Below the pieces are notes generated by a model. The model made no database searches and was not told where the DNA came from. It was given only the letters and a program-made list of their open reading frames with translations. A DNA stretch of 64,000 nucleotides from assembly GCF_001190925.1 (NCBI RefSeq), contig NZ_CP011072.1, positions 4,278,001 through 4,342,000 on the forward strand. Reading direction: 5' to 3'. The position numbers and the translations under genes were made by a program. Positions 2,612-14,922 of the stretch are shown here, one piece after another. The number at the start of each line of letters is the position of its first letter. Within the stretch, counting starts at the first letter, position 1. Source of the DNA: Azoarcus sp. CIB (GTDB lineage Bacteria > Pseudomonadota > Gammaproteobacteria > Burkholderiales > Rhodocyclaceae).

Positions 2612-4236
2612 TCACGCGCCGTCTGCCCAGGACAGCTCACGACCTTCGATCTTGGCTGCCGTTGCGGAACGAGATTCCTGGGCCGGCAAAGTATCTTGGG
2701 GCAGCAAAACCGCCTTCAGTTGGTCCGTGCTCTCCTTCCACGTCAGCCAAGGGAGGCCATCGGACGTCGGGTACTGCCCGGTACGGAACAGTTCGAGCCA
2801 TTCATCGATTGCACCAGCCAAGTCAACCGCCGACAGGCCGGTAAAGTAATGGGCGTGTGATCCAGCCACCTCACGAAAGACGGCGAGGTCTCTCGCGATG
2901 ATCGGCACCTTGTATTGCGCGGCCTCGATTAGCGGGAGTCCAAAGCCCTCCCCCTCGGATGCGGCAATCAAGCAGCTCGACGCAGCATATATTCTATCCA
3001 GATACTCATCGCTGATACCCTCCAACCAGAGCAGGCGCTTATCGAGTTCCGGATGGGCGCGAAGTTTCTGGACGAGCGAATCGACCATCCACCCGGCCTT
3101 GCCCACTATCACGAGGTTCGCCGCAAGACCGCGCTCCCATAACAACTCAAACGCACTCAGAACCTGCGCATGCCCTTTCCGCGGCTCCAACGTGCCCACC
3201 AACAGGAAACTCGGGACGCTCGTGAGCTTTTGCAGAACTACTTCGGCATTCGTGTCCATGCCCTCGCTCGCGCGGCTATTCTTTAAGTCGGCACCGAGAT
3301 GGAACCAACGAATATCGAGCGGGCGTCTCTTCTGCACGCCGTTAGCTCGCACCCAGTCGGCCATCTCCTGTGCGACGGAACGCGAAATACAGATCGCTGA
3401 ATCGGCCTTGGAAACGACTCTCAGCCAATCCTCGTGCCCCTCCTTGAAACCCGGGGGATAAACATTTTCGAACTGGATGGGGATCAGGTCATACACGACG
3501 AACGCGACGTGAACTCCCGAATTCATGAGCCCCTCATAGACGCCACACCTGTCGGCCTGAATGACGTAACCACCAGCAAGATCAAGACCGATAAGAATAT
3601 CGCCGACATGGGGCTCGACCCGCTCGTTCGGGAGCCACCCTTGAGTGCATCCTAGCAATGCGAGGGTATAGTCACGAGCGTATCGGTAATGCCAATTCCC
3701 GCCTTCATCGCTGAGGTATACCGGCTCGATCAGATATCCGCTCGGCGGCGAATCGATCAGCCCGAGCAACAGAGCTCGGACAACCCGTTGAATACCCGTC
3801 TTGAAGTCGTCTCGCACCACTACGGAGACATCGACAAAGAGCTTGCGCGCCGGGCGCTTAGACGGAAAAGCGCGAGACAACGCGTCCGCCAATGCGACGA
3901 CCTCCTGCCCCCCCTCCTCCTCGCGTATCCTGCACCCAAGTTCGCGAATCAACGCAGCGCGCCCGACGCTGGCTCTGTCATAGAATGCCTCAATGCCCCG
4001 AAAATACTGATCGGCACAGACTTCCGGCGAATGAACTGCGTGAACATAGGCCCGGCCCCGTGCTCCAAGGGCCGAACGTTCAGGTGGCTGACGCCTTAGG
4101 ATTTCCAGGGCCTCCACCAACTGCCCTTCGGCAAAATCGTCCGGCAACATCCAGACTGCATCTGTCGGCAGATCTGCCATTGCTCCGTTTGCATTGACAA
4201 CGGTAGCCAGTCCGTAGTTGAGGCAATCAAGTACAG
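2612..4236 (-). pseudogene. 3' part of IS-disrupted multidomain glycosyltransferase
   Basis: This is the C-terminal half of the gene whose 5' half lies at 5504-7137. It begins with the end of one GT-B domain (AVLDCLNYGLATVVNANG), then holds a further complete glycosyltransferase module starting at KLFVDVSVVVRDDFKTGIQRVVR, with the family 4 donor-binding segments LVGTLEPRKGH and AASEGEGFGLPLIEAA. The reading frame continues into the insertion sequence up to an ATG at 4291, which gives a chimeric but probably meaningless start. Deleting 4237-5503 plus one copy of the 10-bp duplication joins both halves in frame as 1,082 residues. A separate truncated protein from this half is possible but has no visible ribosome site. 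Confidence 0.88.
4227..4236. repeat. Target-site duplication, left copy (TCAAGTACAG)
   Basis: This 10-bp direct repeat abuts the left inverted repeat of the ISAs1 element and is identical to 5504-5513. Its length fits the 8-10 bp duplications known for the ISAs1 family. Confidence 0.95.
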
Positions 4237-5503
4237 CAGGGCAATCGCACCGACTTGGCATATGCGAATGCCAAAGATTGTTAACTTTCATGACCTTACC
4301 GAGCCCCTGTTCACAGCGGCATAATTTGTGTAGTTTCCTACCTTTTTGGGCCGCCCATGAAGGCAGGAAACATCATGCCGCTGACGCAGGTGTTCGTCTC
4401 GATTTCCGATCCGCGCAGCGCGCGCCACAAGCGCCACGATCTTGCCGAACTGCTCACGGTGGCGGTTTGCGCGGTGCTGTCGGGCGTGGACGACTTCGTC
4501 GACATCGAATTGTGGGCCGAGGCCAAGATCGACTGGCTGCGGGGCTTCATGAAGCTTGAGCATGGCATCCCGTCCCATGACACGATCGGTCGCGTGTTCG
4601 GCATGATCACGCCCGATGAGTTCGAATCTGCATTCCGGCGCTGGGTTGGCATGGTGGTGCCCGCGTTGGCCGAGGACACGGTCGTGGCAATCGATGGCAA
4701 GACCAGCCGACGAACCGCCAGCAAGACCAAGACGCAGGCGAGTCCGCTGCACTTGGTCAGCGCATTCGTGGCCGGTATGGGTGTTGTGTTGGGCCAGACG
4801 GCGACCGCCGAGAAATCCAACGAGATCACGGCGATCCCGGAATTGCTCGCCAAGTTGGCGCTCGAGGGCTGCGTGGTGACGATCGACGCGATGGGCACGC
4901 AGACGAAGATCGCGCGCACGATCCGCGAGCGTGGCGCCCATTACGTGCTGTGCGTGAAGGACAACCATCCGAAGCTGCTCGACTCGATCATGTTTGCCGG
5001 TATCGGTCCGAACGGACCGCTGACACCGAGTTCGACGCACGAGACCAAGAATCCAGGCCACGGTCGTAGCGAAGTCAGGCGATGCTGGGCCTTTGATGCA
5101 ACCGAGCGGCTCTACAAGGCCGAGGACTGGCAGGACATCGCCAGCTTTGCCGTGGTCGAGCGCGTGCGCACGGTGGGCAATCGCACCAGCACCGAGCGCG
5201 CCTACTACATCAGCAGCCTGCCCGCCGACGCCGAGCGCATCGCTCGGGCCGTACGCAGTCACTGGGAGGTGGAGAATCGCCTTCACTGGTGTCTGGATGT
5301 GCAGTTCAATGAGGATCAGTCACGGGTGCGCAGCGGTTATGCCGCCAACAACCTGGCCATCGTCCGCCACATCGTGATGAACCTGCTGCGGCTCAATACG
5401 ACCCGCAAGGCGAGCATCAAATCGAAGCGCATGCTGGCTGCCACCGTCGATGAATTTCGCGCCGAGTTGCTCGGGGTTATGACATGAAGGTGCGATTGCC
5501 CTG
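4237..5503 (+). mobile_element. ISAs1-family insertion sequence, complete (1,267 bp)
   Basis: The ends are perfect 15-bp inverted repeats, CAGGGCAATCGCACC at 4237-4251 and its complement at 5489-5503, with weaker similarity further in. A perfect 10-bp direct repeat, TCAAGTACAG, flanks the element at 4227-4236 and 5504-5513. The only gene inside is an intact ISAs1-type transposase. The intact termini, duplication and transposase indicate a recent, probably still mobile insertion. It lies opposite to the direction of the interrupted glycosyltransferase. Confidence 0.96.
4357..5487 (+). CDS. ISAs1-family DDE transposase
   Basis: The 376-residue product has the N-terminal DDE_Tnp_1-associated region (SDPRSARHKRHDLAELL) and the transposase core. 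Probable catalytic acids are Asp113 in VVAIDGKTSRR, Asp177 in VVTIDAMGTQ and Glu306 in WEVENRLHWCLDV, the usual ISAs1 spacing. It cuts and joins the element ends. The ATG at 4375 has AGGAA well placed upstream and may be the true start, giving MPLTQVFVSI; the ATG at 4357 has no good ribosome site. The frame has no stop or shift, so the enzyme appears functional. Confidence 0.95.
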   Translation: MKAGNIMPLTQVFVSISDPRSARHKRHDLAELLTVAVCAVLSGVDDFVDIELWAEAKIDWLRGFMKLEHGIPSHDTIGRVFGMITPDEFESAFRRWVGMVVPALAEDTVVAIDGKTSRRTASKTKTQASPLHLVSAFVAGMGVVLGQTATAEKSNEITAIPELLAKLALEGCVVTIDAMGTQTKIARTIRERGAHYVLCVKDNHPKLLDSIMFAGIGPNGPLTPSSTHETKNPGHGRSEVRRCWAFDATERLYKAEDWQDIASFAVVERVRTVGNRTSTERAYYISSLPADAERIARAVRSHWEVENRLHWCLDVQFNEDQSRVRSGYAANNLAIVRHIVMNLLRLNTTRKASIKSKRMLAATVDEFRAELLGVMT

Positions 5504-5513
5504 TCAAGTACAG
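5504..5513. repeat. Target-site duplication, right copy (TCAAGTACAG)
   Basis: Identical to 4227-4236 and directly next to the right inverted repeat. Read on the minus strand it encodes part of the AAVLD stretch, which continues in frame across the element. Confidence 0.95.
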
Positions 5514-7137
5514 CCGCCGAGGTTTCCCCCCGAGAAAGGGTTCTGAGTTGTACGGCCACGTCCGCCGCAGCCAGATACAGGCGGTAGGTTTCAGCGTCAA
5601 CCCAACCGCTGATTCGCACCCCTCGAAGCTCTGGCGCATCTCCAATCCGGTTGGCAAGTTCGATCCCATAGGGAGACTCGTCATTCTCACCAACGAATAG
5701 CAACTTGCAGTGCGTGTCTTCGGTTATCAATCGCGAAGCGGCCCAAGCATTCAGAAGCGAGTGGTTCTGCTTTGTCTTGCCTATGAATCCAAAGCTGCAG
5801 ACTACGAAGTCCTCCTCTGAGAATCCGAGTTTCTTCCTTGCACGCTTCCGGTCGATTTGGCTCGCCCGGAGGCGCAACAACGGGACCACAGAGAGACTAT
5901 GACCTTGGCCGTACCAGTGCTGAGTGAGACGAACCGAGTTCTCCGAATGGACGATGACTCCGAGCGCATTTGTGATTACGCTGAAATTACACGGATAGCC
6001 GAACGCGACGCATTCGTCACCGCTCTGGAACCGCTCCTTCACCGCGCGGTAACCGTGGGCTCGGTATAACTCATCCCAAAGGGCATTGGGCGCTATGTTG
6101 TACGTCTCTCGATACCATTGAACACCGCTCAGGAAGAAGTCGTGCAAGACGACGACGCCGGGAGCCTTGCCCAAGAGTTCAAACATCCCGGCGTGCATCG
6201 GGTTATTGCCAAAATGGTAGAGCACGCGCTCGTATTCGTGCTTCCGTTCGAGGAATTCGTCGCCTGAAAGAACCTCTGCATTTCTCTGAACCCATTCATC
6301 GGTTACCGAAGCCTGAGCTGCTACGACATCGACGTCATAGTAGCGGGCGAGGAAAGGCAACAACTCAGCGCTATAGTCTGCAATTCCAGAACGCTCCGGC
6401 GGCAACGGCGACACATAGGCAAGACGAGGTTTCGTGCTCCGCAAAGACGGGCCCAAGGGAAGCGATTGACAGCGATTCGCATGCATTTCCTCAAACCGCG
6501 CCAAAAGGCGGGTGGCTTCCGTGTTCAGCTCGCTCTCGGCGTCGAATCCCGGCCCGGTGAACGCCTGAAATATTGCCTCGCGTTCAATAGAGAGGCTCTT
6601 CGCGGCACGCTCGACCGTCACCGGCGCGAGCAAATGGCATCCCGCGGCACGTTTCAGAAATTCGAGTTTCCGTGCTCGATGCCCGTCAACCCCAGGCTCC
6701 CCAGTCGGGTGAGCAAGGACTTCCTCGGGCACCATGACGACGGTAGGTAATGCGGGGGCGAAGCCTCCTATGCTCACGACAACGTCGTTTGCATATCCCT
6801 CAAACAAGGTGGTCAGGTATACGACGTCCGGCTCGAGACTTGCCAAGAACGCCTCCCTGATCAGTTCGCCTCGCAGGATGCGCAGGCCGTTTGCCGAATT
6901 GTTCTCACTAAGTGGTCCCGGCGCATTCCAAACCCTGATCTTGTCTTGCGGCAACAGTCCCCGAAACGCGTCACGGATATAGCCAATCGAATCGGGAAAG
7001 GAAGCGCTGAGCGCCAAGACGATGTCGTGCTTCCCGCAATTGCGGACGACCGCTTGAACGAAGGACACGGCGAATCGTCCGACGCCGTTCTGCCGGCGCT
7101 CCGTTTGCGCCCCCTGCATGTCGATGACAATACGCAT
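5504..7137 (-). pseudogene. 5' part of IS-disrupted multidomain glycosyltransferase
   Basis: The first ~544 codons of a very large polysaccharide glycosyltransferase. The N-terminus MRIVIDMQGAQTE starts one GT-like module; a second begins near residue 235 with RLAYVSPLPPERSGIADYSAELL, a common opening of family 4 enzymes, and contains the donor-domain segment SFGFIGKTKQNHSLL. The frame then enters the insertion sequence and stops at 5320 after ~60 unrelated residues. The start ATG overlaps the stop of the upstream gene as TGATG, so translation is probably coupled. The intact protein would have had about three GT modules and likely made the main repeat of the exported polysaccharide. Linkages cannot be predicted. 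Confidence 0.88.
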
Positions 7138-9458
7138 CAGCTGGTCCTATTGCTCCGTTGTATCGCTACCTGCAGCTCGGAATAAATCTGCCGCCCAGTG
7201 GCGGAAAGATTCGACAACTGCGGCTCCCTCTCGAAGGTGGAGTGAATTGATCCGTCGGCCGCAGCGGAAAAATCACATGGCTGTAGCGAATTCGGTAGCC
7301 GGGGACCCGCTTGCGGGAGAAGCCCCGCGTTGCGGGCGAACAGCACGACGTGATTGCGCAGGACCGGGTACCTGTCGAGTGATTTGTTGACCCTGTAACG
7401 CAGCCCCGGCCGCTTAAGGGTGGCACGAACCACCAGAACGGCAGGCGCACGAAGCACTCGGCGTACAGGCTGAGAGATCAGACTAGCCGCCCGGCGCAGT
7501 GGCGAAAAATCGCCCGAGATCACGCGTTTAGCAGCCCGCACTGGCGCAGTCATTCGCCACGAATTGCTGCCATGGATAGCCAACAAGCGCTCGTGCCACT
7601 GTTGCGACTCCACGTACCAGTAATGGGCGCTTCCTTGCGTCGCGACCAATGTTCCATGCAATTCGTTTCGCTCCGCCAGCCAGGCTCCCACCAGTGCGCT
7701 TCCTTCAGCCCCCTGCGCTTCGAGCCGCGCTATGAGGTCTTGCTGCTCCTTCAGCGCTATATCCGCGGCAGCGTACGTACGTTCAAGCTCGTCCGCCCGT
7801 AACTCGGCATGGCGGGCCCGCTGTTCCAACGCGTCCGCACGCTCCACGGCGAGGACCATCCGACGCTCCAGCCCGACGGCACCGGTTTCGGCCGTGACTG
7901 CGCGGACTTCCAGCTCAGCAGCGCGAGCTTCAGCAGCGGCTGCACGACTCTCCATTCCGTCGGCTCGGATTTCGGCCTCGAACACTTGGTACTCGAGCTC
8001 ACCGACGCGGCTCTCGGCGCCAATAGCGCGCTGTTCGAGCTCATGCACCTGCATCAAAGCTGCCACGACCCTCCGCTTCAGCTCTTCGAGCTGAGCTTCA
8101 CTCACAGGCTCCCGCAGGGAGTTGTCGGCCTCATCAGTCCCGTCGGATTCACGGACCTCGAGCCCGGCGGCGCGCAATTCGGCCTCGACAACACGAAGTT
8201 CCAGATCTTCGATGAACGTCTGGGCAAGTCCCACGCGGTACTCCAACGCGGCTGCCTCAGCCTCGGCTGCCTCGGCCCGGCGCAGGTTCTCGTCCGCCTG
8301 CAGTTCGACTGCTCCAGCCTTGACCTCCGCCGCGAGCACCTGTCCTTCGAGGTTCGCTATCTGTTGCGCATACGCCGCGCGCAATTCAACCTCCCTGCGC
8401 CCCGATTGCAGGACGAGAGACCGTGCGCGCTCTGCGTCTCGGAGCAGCCCCGACGCCGAGGGACCGGCGTCACCATCGGCCCAGATTCGCGGCTCATTTT
8501 CGCGCCTGAGGCAAAGCAAGTCGTTCAATTCGCGCTGCGTCATGCCCGACAAGAGCAACAATCCATGCGCCTTGTCTTCGACACGTTCAAAGAAGTCGCG
8601 ATCATCCACCCCATACACGGTCTGCGGACTCACACAGTCAGAAAAATCGACTCCGCAGATGCCGTGCCCAGCCATCTTCCCGATCGTCACCTCGCGATAC
8701 TCCATATCGTCGCTCAAACGATCGATATTCAATAGCAGATCGGCGTGCGCAACGCCTTCCTTGAGGGCGAGCAGCCAAAGCACATAAAAGACGAGGTAGG
8801 AATGCTCCGGCGGAAGCGGGGTCTTCAGAAATCTGTCCATCTGTGCAGGCAGATCCTCGCTTTCGAAGCTGCAGAAACCGATTTCCTGACGTAAGCGTGC
8901 AATGACCTCCGGATGGCGCGGGGCATTCAGGAACAACTGGCTCGTGGCGTCAAAATAATCCGCGACCTTGTATGACCACCATTGGTCCCACGGGTTACGC
9001 CACAAATAGACGTGAAGTCCGCCGAGTTCTTCCTTGATCGCGCCGATTCTGCAGGATGTTCGGCACTCCTGTATGACCGGCTGCCCACGCGATTCCGATA
9101 TTAAGCTCTTCCAGAACTCGAGACCGAACTGCTCTCCTCCCTGCGCGAAATATGCGTCGTAGACATCCGACTTCTTGAGCGCTCCCAGGCAGCGCTCTGC
9201 AACCTCGTAGAGTTCCAGAAAATACGGGTCCGCCAATCTCGGATGGCGCAACATCGCCATCTTGCCGGCATCCTCTCTCAGGAGCATCTCTCTGTTTTCG
9301 CGGGCATACAACGAAATCTCGTGCAGAGGCTCCTGGTAACACCAATAGCCAGCGGCCGAACGACGAAAGGCATTGAAGACGTACGTGCTTCCGGCCCGAA
9401 ACAGAGAATGAATGAAGACGGGGACGCCCGCCGCCAAACGAACCGTGTCTTTTGTCAT
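7137..9458 (-). CDS. Sulfotransferase-like protein with long coiled coil
   Basis: The 773-residue protein has three parts. Residues 1-~320 resemble a PAPS-dependent sulfotransferase: a P-loop-like FIHSLFRAGSTY (15-26) and the VYLWRNPWDQWWSYK segment (150-164) in the position of the 3'-phosphate motif. Residues ~340-600 are an almost unbroken Ala/Glu/Arg-rich heptad stretch, a very long coiled coil. Residues ~605-773 carry the short LAIHGSNSWRMTAPVRA motif seen in many polysaccharide glycosyltransferases and a basic tail. It overlaps its upstream ABC ATPase gene by ATGA and its downstream GT gene by TGATG. A role in modifying or terminating the exported chain is inferred from architecture and position; biochemical sulfation is unproven. 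Confidence 0.72.
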   Translation of the reverse strand: MTKDTVRLAAGVPVFIHSLFRAGSTYVFNAFRRSAAGYWCYQEPLHEISLYARENREMLLREDAGKMAMLRHPRLADPYFLELYEVAERCLGALKKSDVYDAYFAQGGEQFGLEFWKSLISESRGQPVIQECRTSCRIGAIKEELGGLHVYLWRNPWDQWWSYKVADYFDATSQLFLNAPRHPEVIARLRQEIGFCSFESEDLPAQMDRFLKTPLPPEHSYLVFYVLWLLALKEGVAHADLLLNIDRLSDDMEYREVTIGKMAGHGICGVDFSDCVSPQTVYGVDDRDFFERVEDKAHGLLLLSGMTQRELNDLLCLRRENEPRIWADGDAGPSASGLLRDAERARSLVLQSGRREVELRAAYAQQIANLEGQVLAAEVKAGAVELQADENLRRAEAAEAEAAALEYRVGLAQTFIEDLELRVVEAELRAAGLEVRESDGTDEADNSLREPVSEAQLEELKRRVVAALMQVHELEQRAIGAESRVGELEYQVFEAEIRADGMESRAAAAEARAAELEVRAVTAETGAVGLERRMVLAVERADALEQRARHAELRADELERTYAAADIALKEQQDLIARLEAQGAEGSALVGAWLAERNELHGTLVATQGSAHYWYVESQQWHERLLAIHGSNSWRMTAPVRAAKRVISGDFSPLRRAASLISQPVRRVLRAPAVLVVRATLKRPGLRYRVNKSLDRYPVLRNHVVLFARNAGLLPQAGPRLPNSLQPCDFSAAADGSIHSTFEREPQLSNLSATGRQIYSELQVAIQRSNRTS

Positions 9459-10720
9459 GCGAGAGCCAATTCAAAGACTGCGGCCGTATTGATCAGGCCG
9501 GACTTCACGAAGGTCTGGTCGTCTGACCGGATGCGGAAGATTACCGCATCGACCCGCCGATGCAGGAATACGGGAACATCCGAACTGTCATCCCGAACGC
9601 CACAATTGATGTAGAAGACGCCCGGAGCAAATGCGTTTTCGAGCTTGAAACTCGCGATCATCGTATCTCCCGGAGCAAATGAGCGGGCGCTAATGTCGGG
9701 CATATGGGACGTATCCATTCCGAACAACGCGACCCCATCGCGAGTCTTCGCCATGAACGCGAACGCGACCCTGGAAGCCATCTGGGCAAAGCGAACCCGG
9801 TACTTCAGTACGATCGGTTCGCGACTACCGAACACGTTCGCGCGCTCGCCACTGGCGTTCTCGAGCCAGATCGCTTCGATCAGCGCGCGACCGTCGCCGT
9901 ACGCAACCTCGCAGTCGCTCGCCAAGCTTTCATCGACCAATGACTCGGGCGCAATTGGGAACCCTTCGCTGACCTTCGCCGTTTCGCGTCCGCCGAAAAG
10001 TGCCTTCTCGTACAAGTCGCATACGTTCTTTGCTGACCCGAAGGCGAAAACCTCTCCGTTATTCAGGAACAAAGCTTTTCCGCAAATCCTCTTCACGCTG
10101 TCTACGTCGTGACTGACATAGAGCAAACTTGTCCCCTGTTCGCGAAAGTCCTCGATTCGCCGAAAGCATTTCCGCTGGAATGCGGCGTCGCCGACGGCGA
10201 GTGCTTCATCGACGATCAGAATCGCCGGCCGGAGCACAGTCGCAACGGCAAAGGCAAGACGCACTTGCATGCCACTCGAGTAGATCCGGACAGGCTGATC
10301 CACATAATCGCCGATGTCGGCGAACTGCTCGATTTCGGGCATCAATGTGGTGATCTGCTCAACCGTGAGTCCCTGCAACTGCCCTGCCATGAACGCGTTC
10401 TGGCGTCCCGTGAAGTCGGGATGGAACCCCATACCAAGTTCCAGCAGGGCTGCGACACGTCCAGGGCCCACGCGGACGCTCCCGGCAGTCGGTTGCGTAG
10501 TACCGGTAATAATCTTCAGGAGAGTGCTCTTCCCCGCGCCGTTGACGCCAAGGATGCCCATGCTTTCGCCTGCGTCAAGATCGAAGGAAACATCCTTTAA
10601 CACCCATTTAAGGGTGTGGTGAGGTCGATGCCCCGGCGTTACCCATTCCAACAGGCGGGACCATCTGGTCGGGTACTGTTTGAAGGCTTTACCGAGATTG
10701 CTGACTTCGATCCTACCCAT
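9455..10720 (-). CDS. wzt: Polysaccharide ABC exporter ATPase with Wzt C-terminal domain
   Basis: The 421-residue protein has a standard ABC ATPase: Walker A GVNGAGKST (~58-66), signature YSSGMQ (~147-152), Walker B ILIVDEA (~167-173) and switch His in VSHD. After residue ~270 comes a second, mostly beta domain of ~150 residues like the Wzt C-terminal carbohydrate-binding domain, which in E. coli O8/O9a recognises a modified non-reducing end before export. With Wzm it would move lipid-linked polysaccharide across the inner membrane. The ATG at 10720 overlaps the wzm stop (TGATG); a GTG one codon earlier is the alternative. Confidence 0.92.
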   Translation of the reverse strand: MGRIEVSNLGKAFKQYPTRWSRLLEWVTPGHRPHHTLKWVLKDVSFDLDAGESMGILGVNGAGKSTLLKIITGTTQPTAGSVRVGPGRVAALLELGMGFHPDFTGRQNAFMAGQLQGLTVEQITTLMPEIEQFADIGDYVDQPVRIYSSGMQVRLAFAVATVLRPAILIVDEALAVGDAAFQRKCFRRIEDFREQGTSLLYVSHDVDSVKRICGKALFLNNGEVFAFGSAKNVCDLYEKALFGGRETAKVSEGFPIAPESLVDESLASDCEVAYGDGRALIEAIWLENASGERANVFGSREPIVLKYRVRFAQMASRVAFAFMAKTRDGVALFGMDTSHMPDISARSFAPGDTMIASFKLENAFAPGVFYINCGVRDDSSDVPVFLHRRVDAVIFRIRSDDQTFVKSGLINTAAVFELALA

Positions 10721-11514
10721 CACAACTCGTCCACCAATTCACCGGCGTGCCGACGGAAGAGCCCCAGTCCGACGGCGCAGAAAAACAACGCAAGCAAGCA
10801 CACTGCCCACAGGTTTTCCCATTGTGGCCAACGGTTAGCTATGAATATCTGCTGAAAGCTGTCCATTAGAGCTGCCATCGGGTTCCAGATCATCGCCGCA
10901 CGCATCTCGTCCGACAAGGCCGCTGTCGGGTAAACAATTGGCGTAAGCCAAAACCAAAAGGTGATGAAAATGCCGAAAAACTGACCAATGTCGCGAAAGA
11001 AGACGTTGAGCACCCCAAGCGTGACACCCAATCCGATCGAAAATAGAACGAGTATGACGAGAAGAGGGACGAGAGCAAGGATCGCATTACCGGGGAAATT
11101 GCCAGAGAGCAGCAGGAAGGCCGTAAACAGCCCGAAGACGATGCAAAAATTCAGCAACGCGCTCAGGATGATGACCAGCGGCAGGCACATCCGCGGAAAG
11201 CAAAGCTTCTTCAGAAGATTTGCATTGTCGATGAAAACGTTCTGGGCGCGACCGACGATCTCGGCGAAAAGCCCCCAGGTCAGGAGTCCTGCGCACAGAT
11301 AGATACTGTACCCGAACCCGCTATCGACGCCGGGAAGCTTGGCCCGCATGACTTCGGCAAAGATCACCGTATAAACGACAATCATTGCCAAAGGATTTAG
11401 AACGGTCCAGAAAGCTCCCAACAGCGAATTGCGGTACTTGGACTGAAACTCGCGTTTGACACTGCCGATGATAAAACCGCGGTAGTTCCAAAGCGCAGCA
11501 AACATTGCGCTCAT
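10720..11514 (-). CDS. wzm: Polysaccharide ABC exporter permease
   Basis: The 264-residue integral membrane protein belongs to the ABC-2 type permeases of polysaccharide export. It starts with the amphipathic WNYRGFIIGSVKREFQSKYRNSLLGAFWTVLNPLAM segment typical of Wzm/KpsM, then about six hydrophobic helices, with a characteristic FFRDIGQFFGIFITFWFWLTPIVYP stretch. It forms the channel for the Wzt ATPase. The ATG at 11514 has GAGGG upstream. The 115 bases up to manC hold no recognisable signal. Confidence 0.93.
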   Translation of the reverse strand: MSAMFAALWNYRGFIIGSVKREFQSKYRNSLLGAFWTVLNPLAMIVVYTVIFAEVMRAKLPGVDSGFGYSIYLCAGLLTWGLFAEIVGRAQNVFIDNANLLKKLCFPRMCLPLVIILSALLNFCIVFGLFTAFLLLSGNFPGNAILALVPLLVILVLFSIGLGVTLGVLNVFFRDIGQFFGIFITFWFWLTPIVYPTAALSDEMRAAMIWNPMAALMDSFQQIFIANRWPQWENLWAVCLLALFFCAVGLGLFRRHAGELVDEL

Positions 11515-11632
11515 CAAAGCACCCTCGACACACGGAAAACCGGCCCCGCGCGCCGCGCTGAATCCGACATGAAGACCATTTCAGTGTTCTCAGTGGCGCG
11601 GCGGGATTCCCCGCGCCCACCACAACAAGCTT

Positions 11633-13081
11633 TCAAACCGCCACCCGTCCATAAGTATCTTCGAAGCGCACGATGTCGTCCTCGTCGAGGTAGCTACCGG
11701 ATTGGACTTCAATGATTTCAAGCGGAACCTTGCCGGGATTGGCGAGCCGATGAATATGCCCTAAGGGAATGTAGGTCGACTCGTTTTCCGACAAGAAAAA
11801 AACCTTCTCGCCGTTAGTTACCTCAGCTGTACCCTTGACGACAATCCAGTGCTCGGCGCGGTGGTGGTGCATCTGCAGGCTCAGCTTGGCGCCGGGTTTG
11901 ACGACGATGCGCTTGACCTGAAAACGGTCCCCGAAGTCGATCGAGTCATACCAACCCCAGGGGCGGTAGATCTTGCGATGCGCATCGGCGAGCGTGCGGC
12001 CTTCGGCCTTGAGGCGGGTGACGATCTTCTTGACGTCCTGCGTACGAGACTTGTCAACAACCAGGACCGCATCGGGCGTTTCCACGACGATGACGTCTTT
12101 AAGGCCAACCCCGGCAACGAGGCGGCCGCCGCCGTACAGCAGACTGCCCTCGCAGCCTTCAACGATGGTTTCGCCGAAGTGCGCATTTCCACTTGCGTCC
12201 TTCTCCATGACATCCCAGAGGGCGTCCCACGCCCCTACGTCGGACCAGCCTGCGGACATCGGGATCACTACTCCTTCGATGCCGAGGCCGTTCTGGTTCG
12301 CGAGCTTTTCCATCACTGCGTAGTCGATGGAGTCTGACGGACAGGCCGCAAAGGATTGCGGATCGATGCGTAGGAAATCGGCGTCCTGGGCTGCGGCATC
12401 GAAGGCCTGCGTGCAGGCGGTGGACATCGACGGATTCAGCTCCTCCAGTGCTTTCAGCCAGACACTGGCGCGCATCATGAAGAGGCCGCTATTCCACAGA
12501 TACTCACCCGATGCGACGTACTCGGTCGCACGATTCACGTTCGGCTTCTCGACGAAGGCGACGAGTTTGAGTGCGCCATCGTCACGGCGAACGCCGGTGC
12601 GGATATAGCCATACCCGGTCTCGGGGCGCACCGGGACGATTCCGAAGGTGACAATCGCGCCATTGGCGGCCGCGGGAAGGCCGTTTGCGACGGCGGACTG
12701 AAAGGCAGTGCGATCAGTGACGACGTGATCGGCCGGCATCACGAGGAGGATCGGATCATCGCCATTCAACCTGGCTGCGGCCAGCGCCGCGAGGGTCAGC
12801 GCAGGCGCGGTATTCCGCCCCACAGGCTCGAGAACAATGTGCGGATCATCAATGCCCACGGAACGGAGCTGCTCGGCCGCCATGAAGCGATGTTCATTGT
12901 TGCACACCACGATGGTCGTGCCGGTGCCCTGCCCCTGCATGAACCCCTCGAGACGCAACGCGGTTTCCTGCAGCATCGTGCGGTCGCCGGTCAGGGCGAG
13001 AAGCTGCTTGGGCTGCATTTCGCGGGACAACGGCCAAAGCCGCGTTCCGGAACCGCCAGAGAGGATCACAGGAGTTATCAT
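11633..13081 (-). CDS. manC: Mannose-1-phosphate guanylyltransferase / mannose-6-phosphate isomerase
   Basis: The 482-residue bifunctional type II enzyme has the pyrophosphorylase signature GGSGTRLWPLSREMQPKQ at its N-terminus, the FVEKP motif mid-protein, and a C-terminal cupin-like isomerase domain (RPWGWYDSID, GAKLSLQMHHHRAEHWIV) with the metal-binding His cluster. It supplies GDP-mannose, so the polysaccharide probably contains mannose or a GDP-mannose-derived sugar. The ATG at 13081 was chosen because homologues start at MITPVILSGG; an upstream extension to 13159 has no family similarity. It is the first biosynthetic gene before the exporter. Confidence 0.94.
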   Translation of the reverse strand: MITPVILSGGSGTRLWPLSREMQPKQLLALTGDRTMLQETALRLEGFMQGQGTGTTIVVCNNEHRFMAAEQLRSVGIDDPHIVLEPVGRNTAPALTLAALAAARLNGDDPILLVMPADHVVTDRTAFQSAVANGLPAAANGAIVTFGIVPVRPETGYGYIRTGVRRDDGALKLVAFVEKPNVNRATEYVASGEYLWNSGLFMMRASVWLKALEELNPSMSTACTQAFDAAAQDADFLRIDPQSFAACPSDSIDYAVMEKLANQNGLGIEGVVIPMSAGWSDVGAWDALWDVMEKDASGNAHFGETIVEGCEGSLLYGGGRLVAGVGLKDVIVVETPDAVLVVDKSRTQDVKKIVTRLKAEGRTLADAHRKIYRPWGWYDSIDFGDRFQVKRIVVKPGAKLSLQMHHHRAEHWIVVKGTAEVTNGEKVFFLSENESTYIPLGHIHRLANPGKVPLEIIEVQSGSYLDEDDIVRFEDTYGRVAV

Positions 13082-13276
13082 GTTCGAAGGTGCCAGTGGT
13101 TGATTTATACTAAATAGATAAATAATGCGTTTAGCATTACCCGCCCTAAAAAACGGCACTCCTTAAGGGCTGAGCTGGTCGCGCATGTGAACGCGCCAAG
13201 CCTGAGAGCAAAGGCTCGAATTATTGCACTGCGGAACGCCAACTACTATTCAACCAAAGTAATAGGAAGTTACGCG
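13082..13276. promoter_or_regulatory. AT-rich gap upstream of manC with inverted repeat
   Basis: This gap between the nucleotide-sugar epimerase (ends 13270) and manC is unusually AT-rich for the window. It contains a perfect inverted repeat TAATGC-GTTTA-GCATTA at 13123-13139 and, on the minus strand, GTATAAAT close to manC, which could be a -10 element. It is a plausible promoter for the manC-wzm-wzt operon; no clear -35 was found. Confidence 0.35.
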
Positions 13277-14496: not shown

Positions 14497-14922
14497 TCAA
14501 TGCATTTGCAGCCAGTCAGCGAATTCCGCAACCGTGAGGACGGGGATGTGAAATTGCGCCTTGACTGCCTGAATGTCTCCGTCGCCGCTCACCAGAGCAT
14601 CGGCAGAACCTACGGCCGCGAGGGCCAGAAAAATGACGTCGTCGGCATCGCGAATTTGCGGCAGGCCTTCGGGCGTCGTCTCGACCTTGACGATCTCCAC
14701 GTAGGGCAGGAATTCTGCCAAAAGGCTCTCCTGCTCGCTCCGGCTGAGCTTGAACTTGGGGTAGTTCAGGACACGAAGAAGTTCGCTGACCGTGTCACGA
14801 CTGGCCAGGGCGATGAAGCGTTTTGCCTGCCAGGCCTCTCGCAGCCAGACGAATTTACCCCGTGAGAAGATCAGTGCCGACACCAGGCAGTTGGTGTCGA
14901 GGACAACGCGGGGGACGCTCAT
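14497..14922 (-). CDS. PIN-domain toxin of a type II toxin-antitoxin pair
   Basis: The 141-residue protein has the PIN fold pattern: Asp in VVLDTNCLVSAL near the N-terminus, Glu in TVSELLRVL, and Asp residues in IRDADDVIFLALA and LVSGDGDI. These acidic residues bind the metal used for RNA cleavage. It matches the PIN toxin subfamily paired with AbrB-type antitoxins. Its start overlaps the antitoxin stop by ATGA, as usual for such pairs. The RNA target is unknown. Confidence 0.88.
   Translation of the reverse strand: MSVPRVVLDTNCLVSALIFSRGKFVWLREAWQAKRFIALASRDTVSELLRVLNYPKFKLSRSEQESLLAEFLPYVEIVKVETTPEGLPQIRDADDVIFLALAAVGSADALVSGDGDIQAVKAQFHIPVLTVAEFADWLQMH

Follow-up and report, generated by a model that had tools for sequence, protein, structure and literature searches.

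The subject of this analysis is a gene of Azoarcus sp. CIB that appears to encode a chain terminator with a sulfotransferase head, acting on a polysaccharide exported by an ATP-binding cassette (ABC) transporter. It lies in a stretch of 64,000 nucleotides, here called the window, which covers positions 4278001-4342000 of the 5.26-Mb single-contig genome. On the minus strand the gene order is manC, wzm, wzt, the sulfotransferase-coil gene and a GT4-type glycosyltransferase gene. The sulfotransferase-coil gene (7137..9458) codes for 773 amino acids (aa) that form a head, a coil and a tail. It is preceded by wzt (9455..10720, 421 aa), with an ABC_tran match (E 1.8e-21) and, at 9458..9985, a C-terminal cap-binding domain (Wzt_C, PF14524, E 2.9e-24), by the permease gene wzm (10720..11517; PF01061, E 7.7e-21) and by manC/GMP-PMI for GDP-mannose supply (11633..13159; TIGR01479, E 1.9e-205). 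An earlier note on this DNA had placed the terminator open reading frame (ORF) and wzt at these same positions, and had described a binding domain in Wzt and translational coupling of the terminator gene to both its neighbours. All of this is borne out: the genes overlap by a few bases at the wzm/wzt (TGATG), wzt/sulfotransferase (ATGA) and sulfotransferase/glycosyltransferase (TGATG) joints. Elsewhere in the cluster are genes for a CDP-glucose 4,6-dehydratase (1430-2533), a glucose-1-phosphate cytidylyltransferase and a GDP-mannose 4,6-dehydratase. From its sequence the cluster is read as an O-polysaccharide locus with ABC transporter export.

Head, coil and tail of the putative terminator

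The cluster features described below lie on the minus strand, except for an insertion sequence. The head (residues 1-325, 8484..9458) was predicted to adopt the fold of sulfotransferases that use 3'-phosphoadenosine 5'-phosphosulfate (PAPS) (structure model, Foldseek), as the sulfotransferase-like domain of the earlier note implied, and the model supports PAPS-dependent sulfotransfer as its predicted activity. The head was not identified by sequence searches: it gave no match to a Pfam sulfotransferase, to an NCBIfam model or to a PDB sequence, and a further PDB sequence search returned two unrelated chains only (E 0.02). Sequence identity to solved sulfotransferases amounts to 7-16 %. The best Foldseek E value was 1.8e-3, none was <=0.001, and some P-loop kinases stood lower in the same list. 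Searches of Pfam and NCBIfam gave no methyltransferase match in the head, which thus is not of the methyltransferase type of WbdD.

Relatives of the head are rare. Among 61 genomes of relatives, this one included, three match some part of the protein and two of these the head, the genome G027 matching in coil and tail only. The head was matched in 5 of 399 genomes of the order and in 7 of 369 of the class, with this genome counted in each. A scan of a contig collection with a three-sequence profile (a six-head profile was too loose) yielded 39 loci, from beta-, gamma- and alphaproteobacteria, Desulfobulbaceae, Nitrospirota and others. In 20 of these 39 loci the sulfotransferase-coil gene directly follows a C-domain Wzt on the same strand, so that the search for the same fusion beside wzm/wzt in other genomes, proposed earlier, was positive. 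One locus (L063) is truncated where its contig stops, and several more run out at contig edges; L057 has divergent wzm/wzt. In L061 the head and coil are fused to glycosyltransferases (Pfam), and in L038, L059 and L060 the tail motif described below is followed by 895-1109 residues of unclassified kind. Three proteins have other additions. In L015:129-1886 and L028:1662-3665 a methyltransferase-like domain comes after the head on the same polypeptide (an FkbM match in L015, recognised only by eye in L028), and in L030:9959-11692 a domain of unknown kind takes the place of the long coil.

Sulfotransfer_3 was matched by 2 of the 39 heads at E <=0.01 (best 8.2e-5), and NCBIfam models by none. Several positions are conserved throughout the family. 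A P-loop-like segment, H17..R21-x-G-S24-T25 (9384..9410), has invariant H17 and R21, with G23, S24 and T25 kept in at least 90 % of the 39 heads; we take it to be the 5'-phosphosulfate loop, as in the sulfotransferase superfamily. R154 and S162 (8973..8999), spaced by 8, are invariant in 39/39 heads and presumably form the 3'-phosphate-binding Arg/Ser pair of SULT enzymes. Glu43 (9330..9332), present in at least 90 % of the heads, is a candidate catalytic base by presumed analogy with tyrosylprotein sulfotransferase. Conservation thus brings out both parts of a putative PAPS site, the loop and the Arg/Ser pair, by the motif definitions of the superfamily.

The head is joined to a helical rod (residues 335-630, 7569..8456), which both the model and heptad analysis describe as an extended coiled coil. 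In the full-length model (predicted local distance difference test score 76) helices at 335-430, 454-581 and 586-630 add up to 269 residues, close to the ~260-residue coiled coil noticed before. Heptad windows cover 188 residues, against an average of 71 in 300 shuffles (sd 40, maximum 205), and the periodicity has a power of 3.9 at period 3.5. The heptad signal exceeds the shuffle average only modestly, which makes for moderate evidence from the sequence of the window itself. Between head and tail motif the linker varies from 62 to 305 residues in the proteins where the motif was matched, the window having the longest (305) and its homologue in Aromatoleum toluclasticum (L025) one of 154. A DNA tandem repeat (score at least 60, best one per ORF) was found between head and tail motif in 22 of 71 ORFs with tail motif or head. 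In 19 of these 22 its period was divisible by 21 nt (p 9e-14 if 1/7 is expected). A coil built by slippage in the window itself was considered and rejected: the only array there is of 15 nt in 2.3 copies, and the repeat argument therefore rests on the relatives. A different coiled-coil periodicity is seen in L074:6483-8939, with a 33-nt DNA repeat (11 residues) ahead of the tail motif. L033:9977-13948 combines a sulfotransferase head with a variant motif, a far longer coil and a DUF4214 match.

The C-terminal tail, also described in the earlier note, has two recognizable parts. The tail motif SNSWRMTAPVR (residues 631-641, 7536..7568) follows the pattern SxSW[RK]x[TS]xPxR, which is common to other head kinds. 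Near the end lies the peptide LSATGRQIYSELQVAI (residues 751-766, 7161..7208), with the family consensus L[ST]PRAxxIYxxLxxA, a candidate polymerase-docking peptide. A profile was made from 13 C-terminal peptides of the sulfotransferase family, picked by eye, with the cut-off set at an empirical p of 0.01; in leave-one-out 12 of the 13 pass, L045 being at 0.028. All 7 methyltransferase-coil proteins in which 95-320 residues follow the motif contain the peptide (p <=0.0054, 1111 control ORFs). When more than 320 residues follow the motif, 1 of 17 proteins passes (L071), with L113 at 0.02 and L038 at 0.05; glycosyltransferase matches were seen in the 10 of these 17 whose C-terminal part was examined. 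By the profile, the peptide is absent from L125, L042 and L040, the last of which runs to the contig end.

The Wzt domain and its cap pocket

The gene slot after wzt is also occupied by other heads. In L013, from the same bacterial family, the order is wzm, wzt, a gene for an FkbM methyltransferase with coil and the same tail, and a glycosyltransferase gene. In 60 further Wzt_C loci taken from the order, the gene after wzt is often methyltransferase-headed. Among grouped loci the tail motif is present in 8/9 with FkbM, 7/18 of the Methyltransf_11 group and 4/4 of the Methyltransf_24 group. A head counted here as methyltransferase-only is one in which no further domain was seen. A second sulfotransferase lineage (L098) follows wzt and carries the same tail motif. 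L107 is a true WbdD relative (E 6e-92 to WbdD). A further group, c3, has methyltransferase heads, in most with an unannotated second domain and a coil. This second domain has no Pfam or PDB match and its loop is kinase-like by eye only; the c3 group is possibly a further kinase-like family. The c3 ORF of L097 (295 aa) ends before the second domain. Another head kind is possibly found in L117:3849-7478, where 1209 residues after wzt comprise a beta-propeller-like repeat domain (by eye) and a coil, beside a Wzt with Arg at the pocket position discussed below.

The C-domain of Wzt was compared among 60 Wzts with five head kinds. The window's Wzt and that of L013 (FkbM) share 62 % identity in the ATPase part and 19 % in the C-domain; with L025 (sulfotransferase) the values are 81 % and 73 %. 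For pairs with ATPase identity of at least 65 %, median C-domain identity was 47.4 % with the same head (127 pairs) versus 28.4 % with different heads (123 pairs), and at 55-65 % it was 36.8 versus 24.1. For 49 of the 60 Wzts the closest C-domain belongs to a Wzt with the same kind of head, and for 41 this holds of the closest ATPase part. On the C-domain tree 3 changes are required between the window's sulfotransferase family and the remaining heads, where 300 shuffles need 18.1 on average and never fewer than 11; the ATPase-part tree requires 5 (lowest shuffle 13). None of 2000 label shuffles produced a residual C-domain difference as large, a significance that is overstated because such shuffles ignore kinship.

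In the crystal structure of Aquifex Wzt, the 3-O-methyl cap has Trp362 stacked on it, and a W362L substitution essentially abolishes lipopolysaccharide (LPS) binding (PMC9445017). A PDB search with the window's C-domain alone gave one chance match and was replaced by a profile of 32. In the profile alignment Trp362 of A. aeolicus (PDB index 363) shares its column with Arg388 of the window's Wzt (9557..9559), and the offset of one also holds for the other Aquifex pocket residues described (PMC9445017). Arg388 thus occupies the Trp362 position in the cap pocket. Throughout the window's sulfotransferase family the column is basic, with 18 Arg and 4 Lys in 22/22 Wzts. The domain in PDB entry 2r5o, which we take to be the E. 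coli O9a Wzt domain, likewise has Arg at this column. Methyltransferase heads accompany Trp in 31 of 32 (FkbM 10/10, Methyltransf_24 4/4, Methyltransf_11 17/18, with one unaligned). Arg was found in 6/6 c3 loci of the first set and beside L098 and L107. The Trp/Arg rule was noticed in these first 84 Wzts, 60 in the five head kinds and 24 others, and their counts are therefore in-sample. Four of the 24 (L098, L107, L109, L121) are reported by name and 20 are uncounted; several of the latter have Trp, L105, L114 and L117 have Arg, and L125 and L126 are basic in one of two alignments.

A later set of 40 loci was fetched after the prediction had been fixed; 40 Wzts were readable and 15 next genes were classed, leaving 25 Wzts uncounted, some with R or K (L135, L152, L160). 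All four heads expected to make anionic caps (three c3 and one second-lineage sulfotransferase) accompany Arg, and the 11 methyltransferase heads accompany Trp in 8, Arg in one (L131) and Glu in one (L154), with one unaligned (L155). The Fisher p for Arg/Lys is 0.004 in this set, which holds no member of the window's head family. With both sets, the c3 loci L095, L097, L103, L106, L111, L112, L134, L137 and L162 have an Arg-type Wzt in 9/9; c3 heads would presumably make anionic caps. The sequence comparison supports the conclusion that the cap-pocket residue tells two classes of Wzt apart: it is Arg or Lys beside the window's sulfotransferase family and, apart from a few exceptions, Trp beside methyltransferase heads. 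A basic pocket residue is what recognition of a sulfated end by Wzt would require.

Proposed chain termination by sulfate and its alternatives

The best explanation, with a probability of roughly 0.73, is that the gene encodes a chain terminator of the WbdD kind with a PAPS sulfotransferase head, for an ABC-exported O-polysaccharide whose terminal sulfate is read by Wzt. Its computed support consists of the head fold, the conserved PAPS-site positions, the rod, the shared tail, the pairing with Wzt, the change of C-domain with head and the basic pocket residue. Structure model and sequence comparison together support the WbdD-like layout of head, coil, tail and Wzt binding domain that had been suggested for the window. 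In the proposed mechanism, a polymerase recruited at the C-terminal tail, with LSATGRQIYSELQVAI as its candidate docking site, would make the growing chain, and the coiled coil would hold the head off the membrane. A chain long enough to reach the head would receive sulfate from PAPS on its non-reducing terminal sugar, so that length would be measured by the coil, and the terminal sulfate would stop chain growth. The C-domain of Wzt would recognise the sulfated end via Arg388 and admit the chain for export.

The polymerase is presumably encoded by the glycosyltransferase gene after the terminator, and here the state of the locus matters. The earlier note had named this neighbour as the main glycosyltransferase; an adjoining, coupled GT4-type gene is indeed present, but it is interrupted by a 1266-bp insertion sequence (IS) of the ISAs1 family (4238..5503, plus strand; transposase NF033564, E 1.1e-120) with inverted ends. 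The gene (2612..7137) is left as two pieces, ~5504-7137 and 2612-4237. They were probably once one gene, because an 11-bp direct repeat flanks the element at 4227-4237 and 5504-5514. In L025 the corresponding slot is taken by an open gene coding for 1277 residues. With its polymerase gene broken in this way, the system may be silent and the strain may make no such polymer. That the locus is a silent remnant in this strain, with a broken polymerase gene and a drifting terminator gene, is doubtful. The terminator gene, wzt and wzm are all open. The genome holds five full-length ISAs1 copies including that of the window, four identical and one at 99 %, and since identical copies occur elsewhere the insertion looks recent. 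Moreover, a silent locus would bear on the strain and not on the function of the family.

It is unlikely that the Arg/Trp difference reflects only common descent of Wzt C-domains and not cap chemistry. With 2 head changes and 3 changes of the residue, the C-domain tree has not enough events for a test, and it offers 2 independent pairs only. The ATPase tree of 77 Wzts (74 scored) has 7 head changes, and 5/5 of its supported independent pairs agree, with a sign test p of only 0.0625. Lys occurs in a small sulfotransferase group (L029, L037, L040, L042) that clusters with Trp-bearing C-domains, and the contact of Trp362 with the cap in the crystal structure (PMC9445017) also argues for cap chemistry.

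Several observations weigh against chain termination by a sulfate that Wzt reads. Besides the interrupted polymerase gene, eight heads (350-431 residues) are located away from wzm/wzt (L043, L044, L048, L050, L052, L054, L055 and L062). In three loci with the head (L028, L030, L033) the Wzt ORF spans 217-220 residues and lacks the C-domain, which puts L033 with its very long coil outside a simple pairing, and all that L035 and L051 have is a permease with a weak match. Below 55 % ATPase identity there is no C-domain difference between same and different heads. The pocket rule has its own exceptions: L121, where the next gene is a coil-less other sulfotransferase without tail motif, has Val; the Wzt of L109, also before a coil-less other sulfotransferase, could not be aligned, nor could that of L157, with a second-lineage sulfotransferase ~1 kb downstream; Arg is found beside the methyltransferase-headed coil protein of L131 and beside the unclassed next gene of L105, methyltransferase-like by eye. 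Finally, a gene for adenosine 5'-phosphosulfate (APS) kinase is present in 3 of 40 family loci versus 3 of 100 controls, no excess (Fisher p 0.35).

The heads away from wzm/wzt and the Wzts without C-domain would fit a head that sulfates internal sugars or the lipid-linked precursor during growth, the coil being only a polymerase anchor and the sulfate being unread by Wzt. This is quite unlikely, as the tail and gene slot are common to methyltransferase heads and both the C-domain and the cap-pocket residue of Wzt track the head. As to PAPS supply, an argument from gene order was dropped, since control loci carry an APS kinase gene about as often; the claim is limited to a capacity to make PAPS, APS kinase being found in 5/5 genomes searched including this one. 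In L064:4187-4807 and L060:386-1066 an APS kinase gene lies upstream of wzm in the same cluster as the sulfotransferase terminator. That the fold has a changed function, for instance without use of PAPS or as a scaffold only, is very improbable despite the low identity to solved sulfotransferases, the best Foldseek E value of 1.8e-3 and the kinases in that list, as H17, R21, R154 and S162 are invariant in all 39 heads, the Wzt pocket carries the basic residue that an anionic cap calls for, and the second sulfotransferase lineage (L098, L132) with the same tail motif beside wzt is also accompanied by Arg.

Beyond the sulfate-capping terminator of the window, a wider picture is favoured somewhat above even odds. 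Sulfate would be a further cap class in several phyla, and Wzt would read the cap via one position, Trp for neutral methyl and Arg/Lys for anionic caps (sulfate, methyl-phosphate). Terminators would share one chassis of coil, SxSWRxTxPLR and docking peptide, on which heads are swapped along with the Wzt C-domain, and coil length would be retuned by in-frame heptad DNA repeats, changing chain length.

Relation to known terminators

WbdD of E. coli O9/O9a has a catalytic head, a coiled coil, a C-terminal polymerase-recruiting region and a C-domain Wzt (PMC3482155, PMC11231755), as proposed for the window. Its head is a methyltransferase plus kinase, whereas the window's has a sulfotransferase fold and a predicted sulfate cap instead of methyl-phosphate. 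WbdD of E. coli O8 is a methyltransferase-only terminator (PMC3482155). The methyltransferase terminators seen here (FkbM, Methyltransf_11 and Methyltransf_24 heads) resemble the window's protein in the position after wzt, in many loci in the tail motif, and in the C-terminal peptide where the C-terminus is not extended. In contrast, terminators of the O8 WbdD kind make methyl caps and their Wzts carry Trp instead of Arg/Lys. In WbbB of K. pneumoniae O12 a Kdo (3-deoxy-D-manno-oct-2-ulosonic acid) terminator and a polymerase form one protein (PMC11231755), a layout like that of L061; its head adds Kdo, not sulfate, and the window protein is unfused. The K. pneumoniae O4 and O7 terminators (GT137; methyltransferase-kinase) are coil proteins with new head chemistry and the same logic (PMC11231755). 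Their chemistry differs from sulfation, and 'sulf' occurs 0 times in that text. Tyrosylprotein and other PAPS sulfotransferases share the fold of the head, to which they are ~10 % identical; unlike them, the head is joined to a coil and encoded in an operon for glycan export.

The nearest parallel in gene order is the wb cluster of Aeromonas salmonicida, in which ORF19, a sulfotransferase-domain gene, lies between wzt and wbbB (PMC4483657). It is likened here by gene order, not by sequence: ORF19 is listed as 216 aa, the word 'coiled' does not occur in the text, which leaves its role open, and the O-antigen structure described there has no known residue matching a sulfotransferase activity (PMC4483657). 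Besides ORF19, the nearest hint is that Cobetia marina has a sulfated capsule (PMC11766843). Methyl, (methyl)phosphate and Kdo are the caps mentioned in the cited passages (PMC9445017, PMC11231755, PMC3482155). Among the titles and abstract openings listed for open-licence literature on sulfotransferases, sulfated O-antigens, ABC-dependent export and chain termination, none reports a sulfate cap or a sulfotransferase terminator. The capping-and-measuring logic is already known; sulfate as its cap chemistry would be new. The reading of the earlier note finds good support in sequence comparison and structure model. The pocket rule is new and testable, with exceptions, and the sulfation chemistry of the head is a prediction from the model.

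If true, a sulfate cap would be another cap chemistry and would place a negative charge at the outermost end of a surface polysaccharide. A single-residue rule in Wzt, if true, would make the cap class testable and the O-antigen cap predictable from the genome. A. toluclasticum and the window's strain, with heads ~60 % alike and linkers of 154 and 305 residues, would offer a natural test of the idea that the coil acts as a ruler.

Two minor observations concern the surroundings of the cluster. A PIN-domain-like ORF (by eye) at window positions 14497-14922 adjoins the O-antigen cluster. Another C-domain Wzt is encoded ~190 kb away (C1:4089443-4089808, L067), and a further polysaccharide export locus may exist there.

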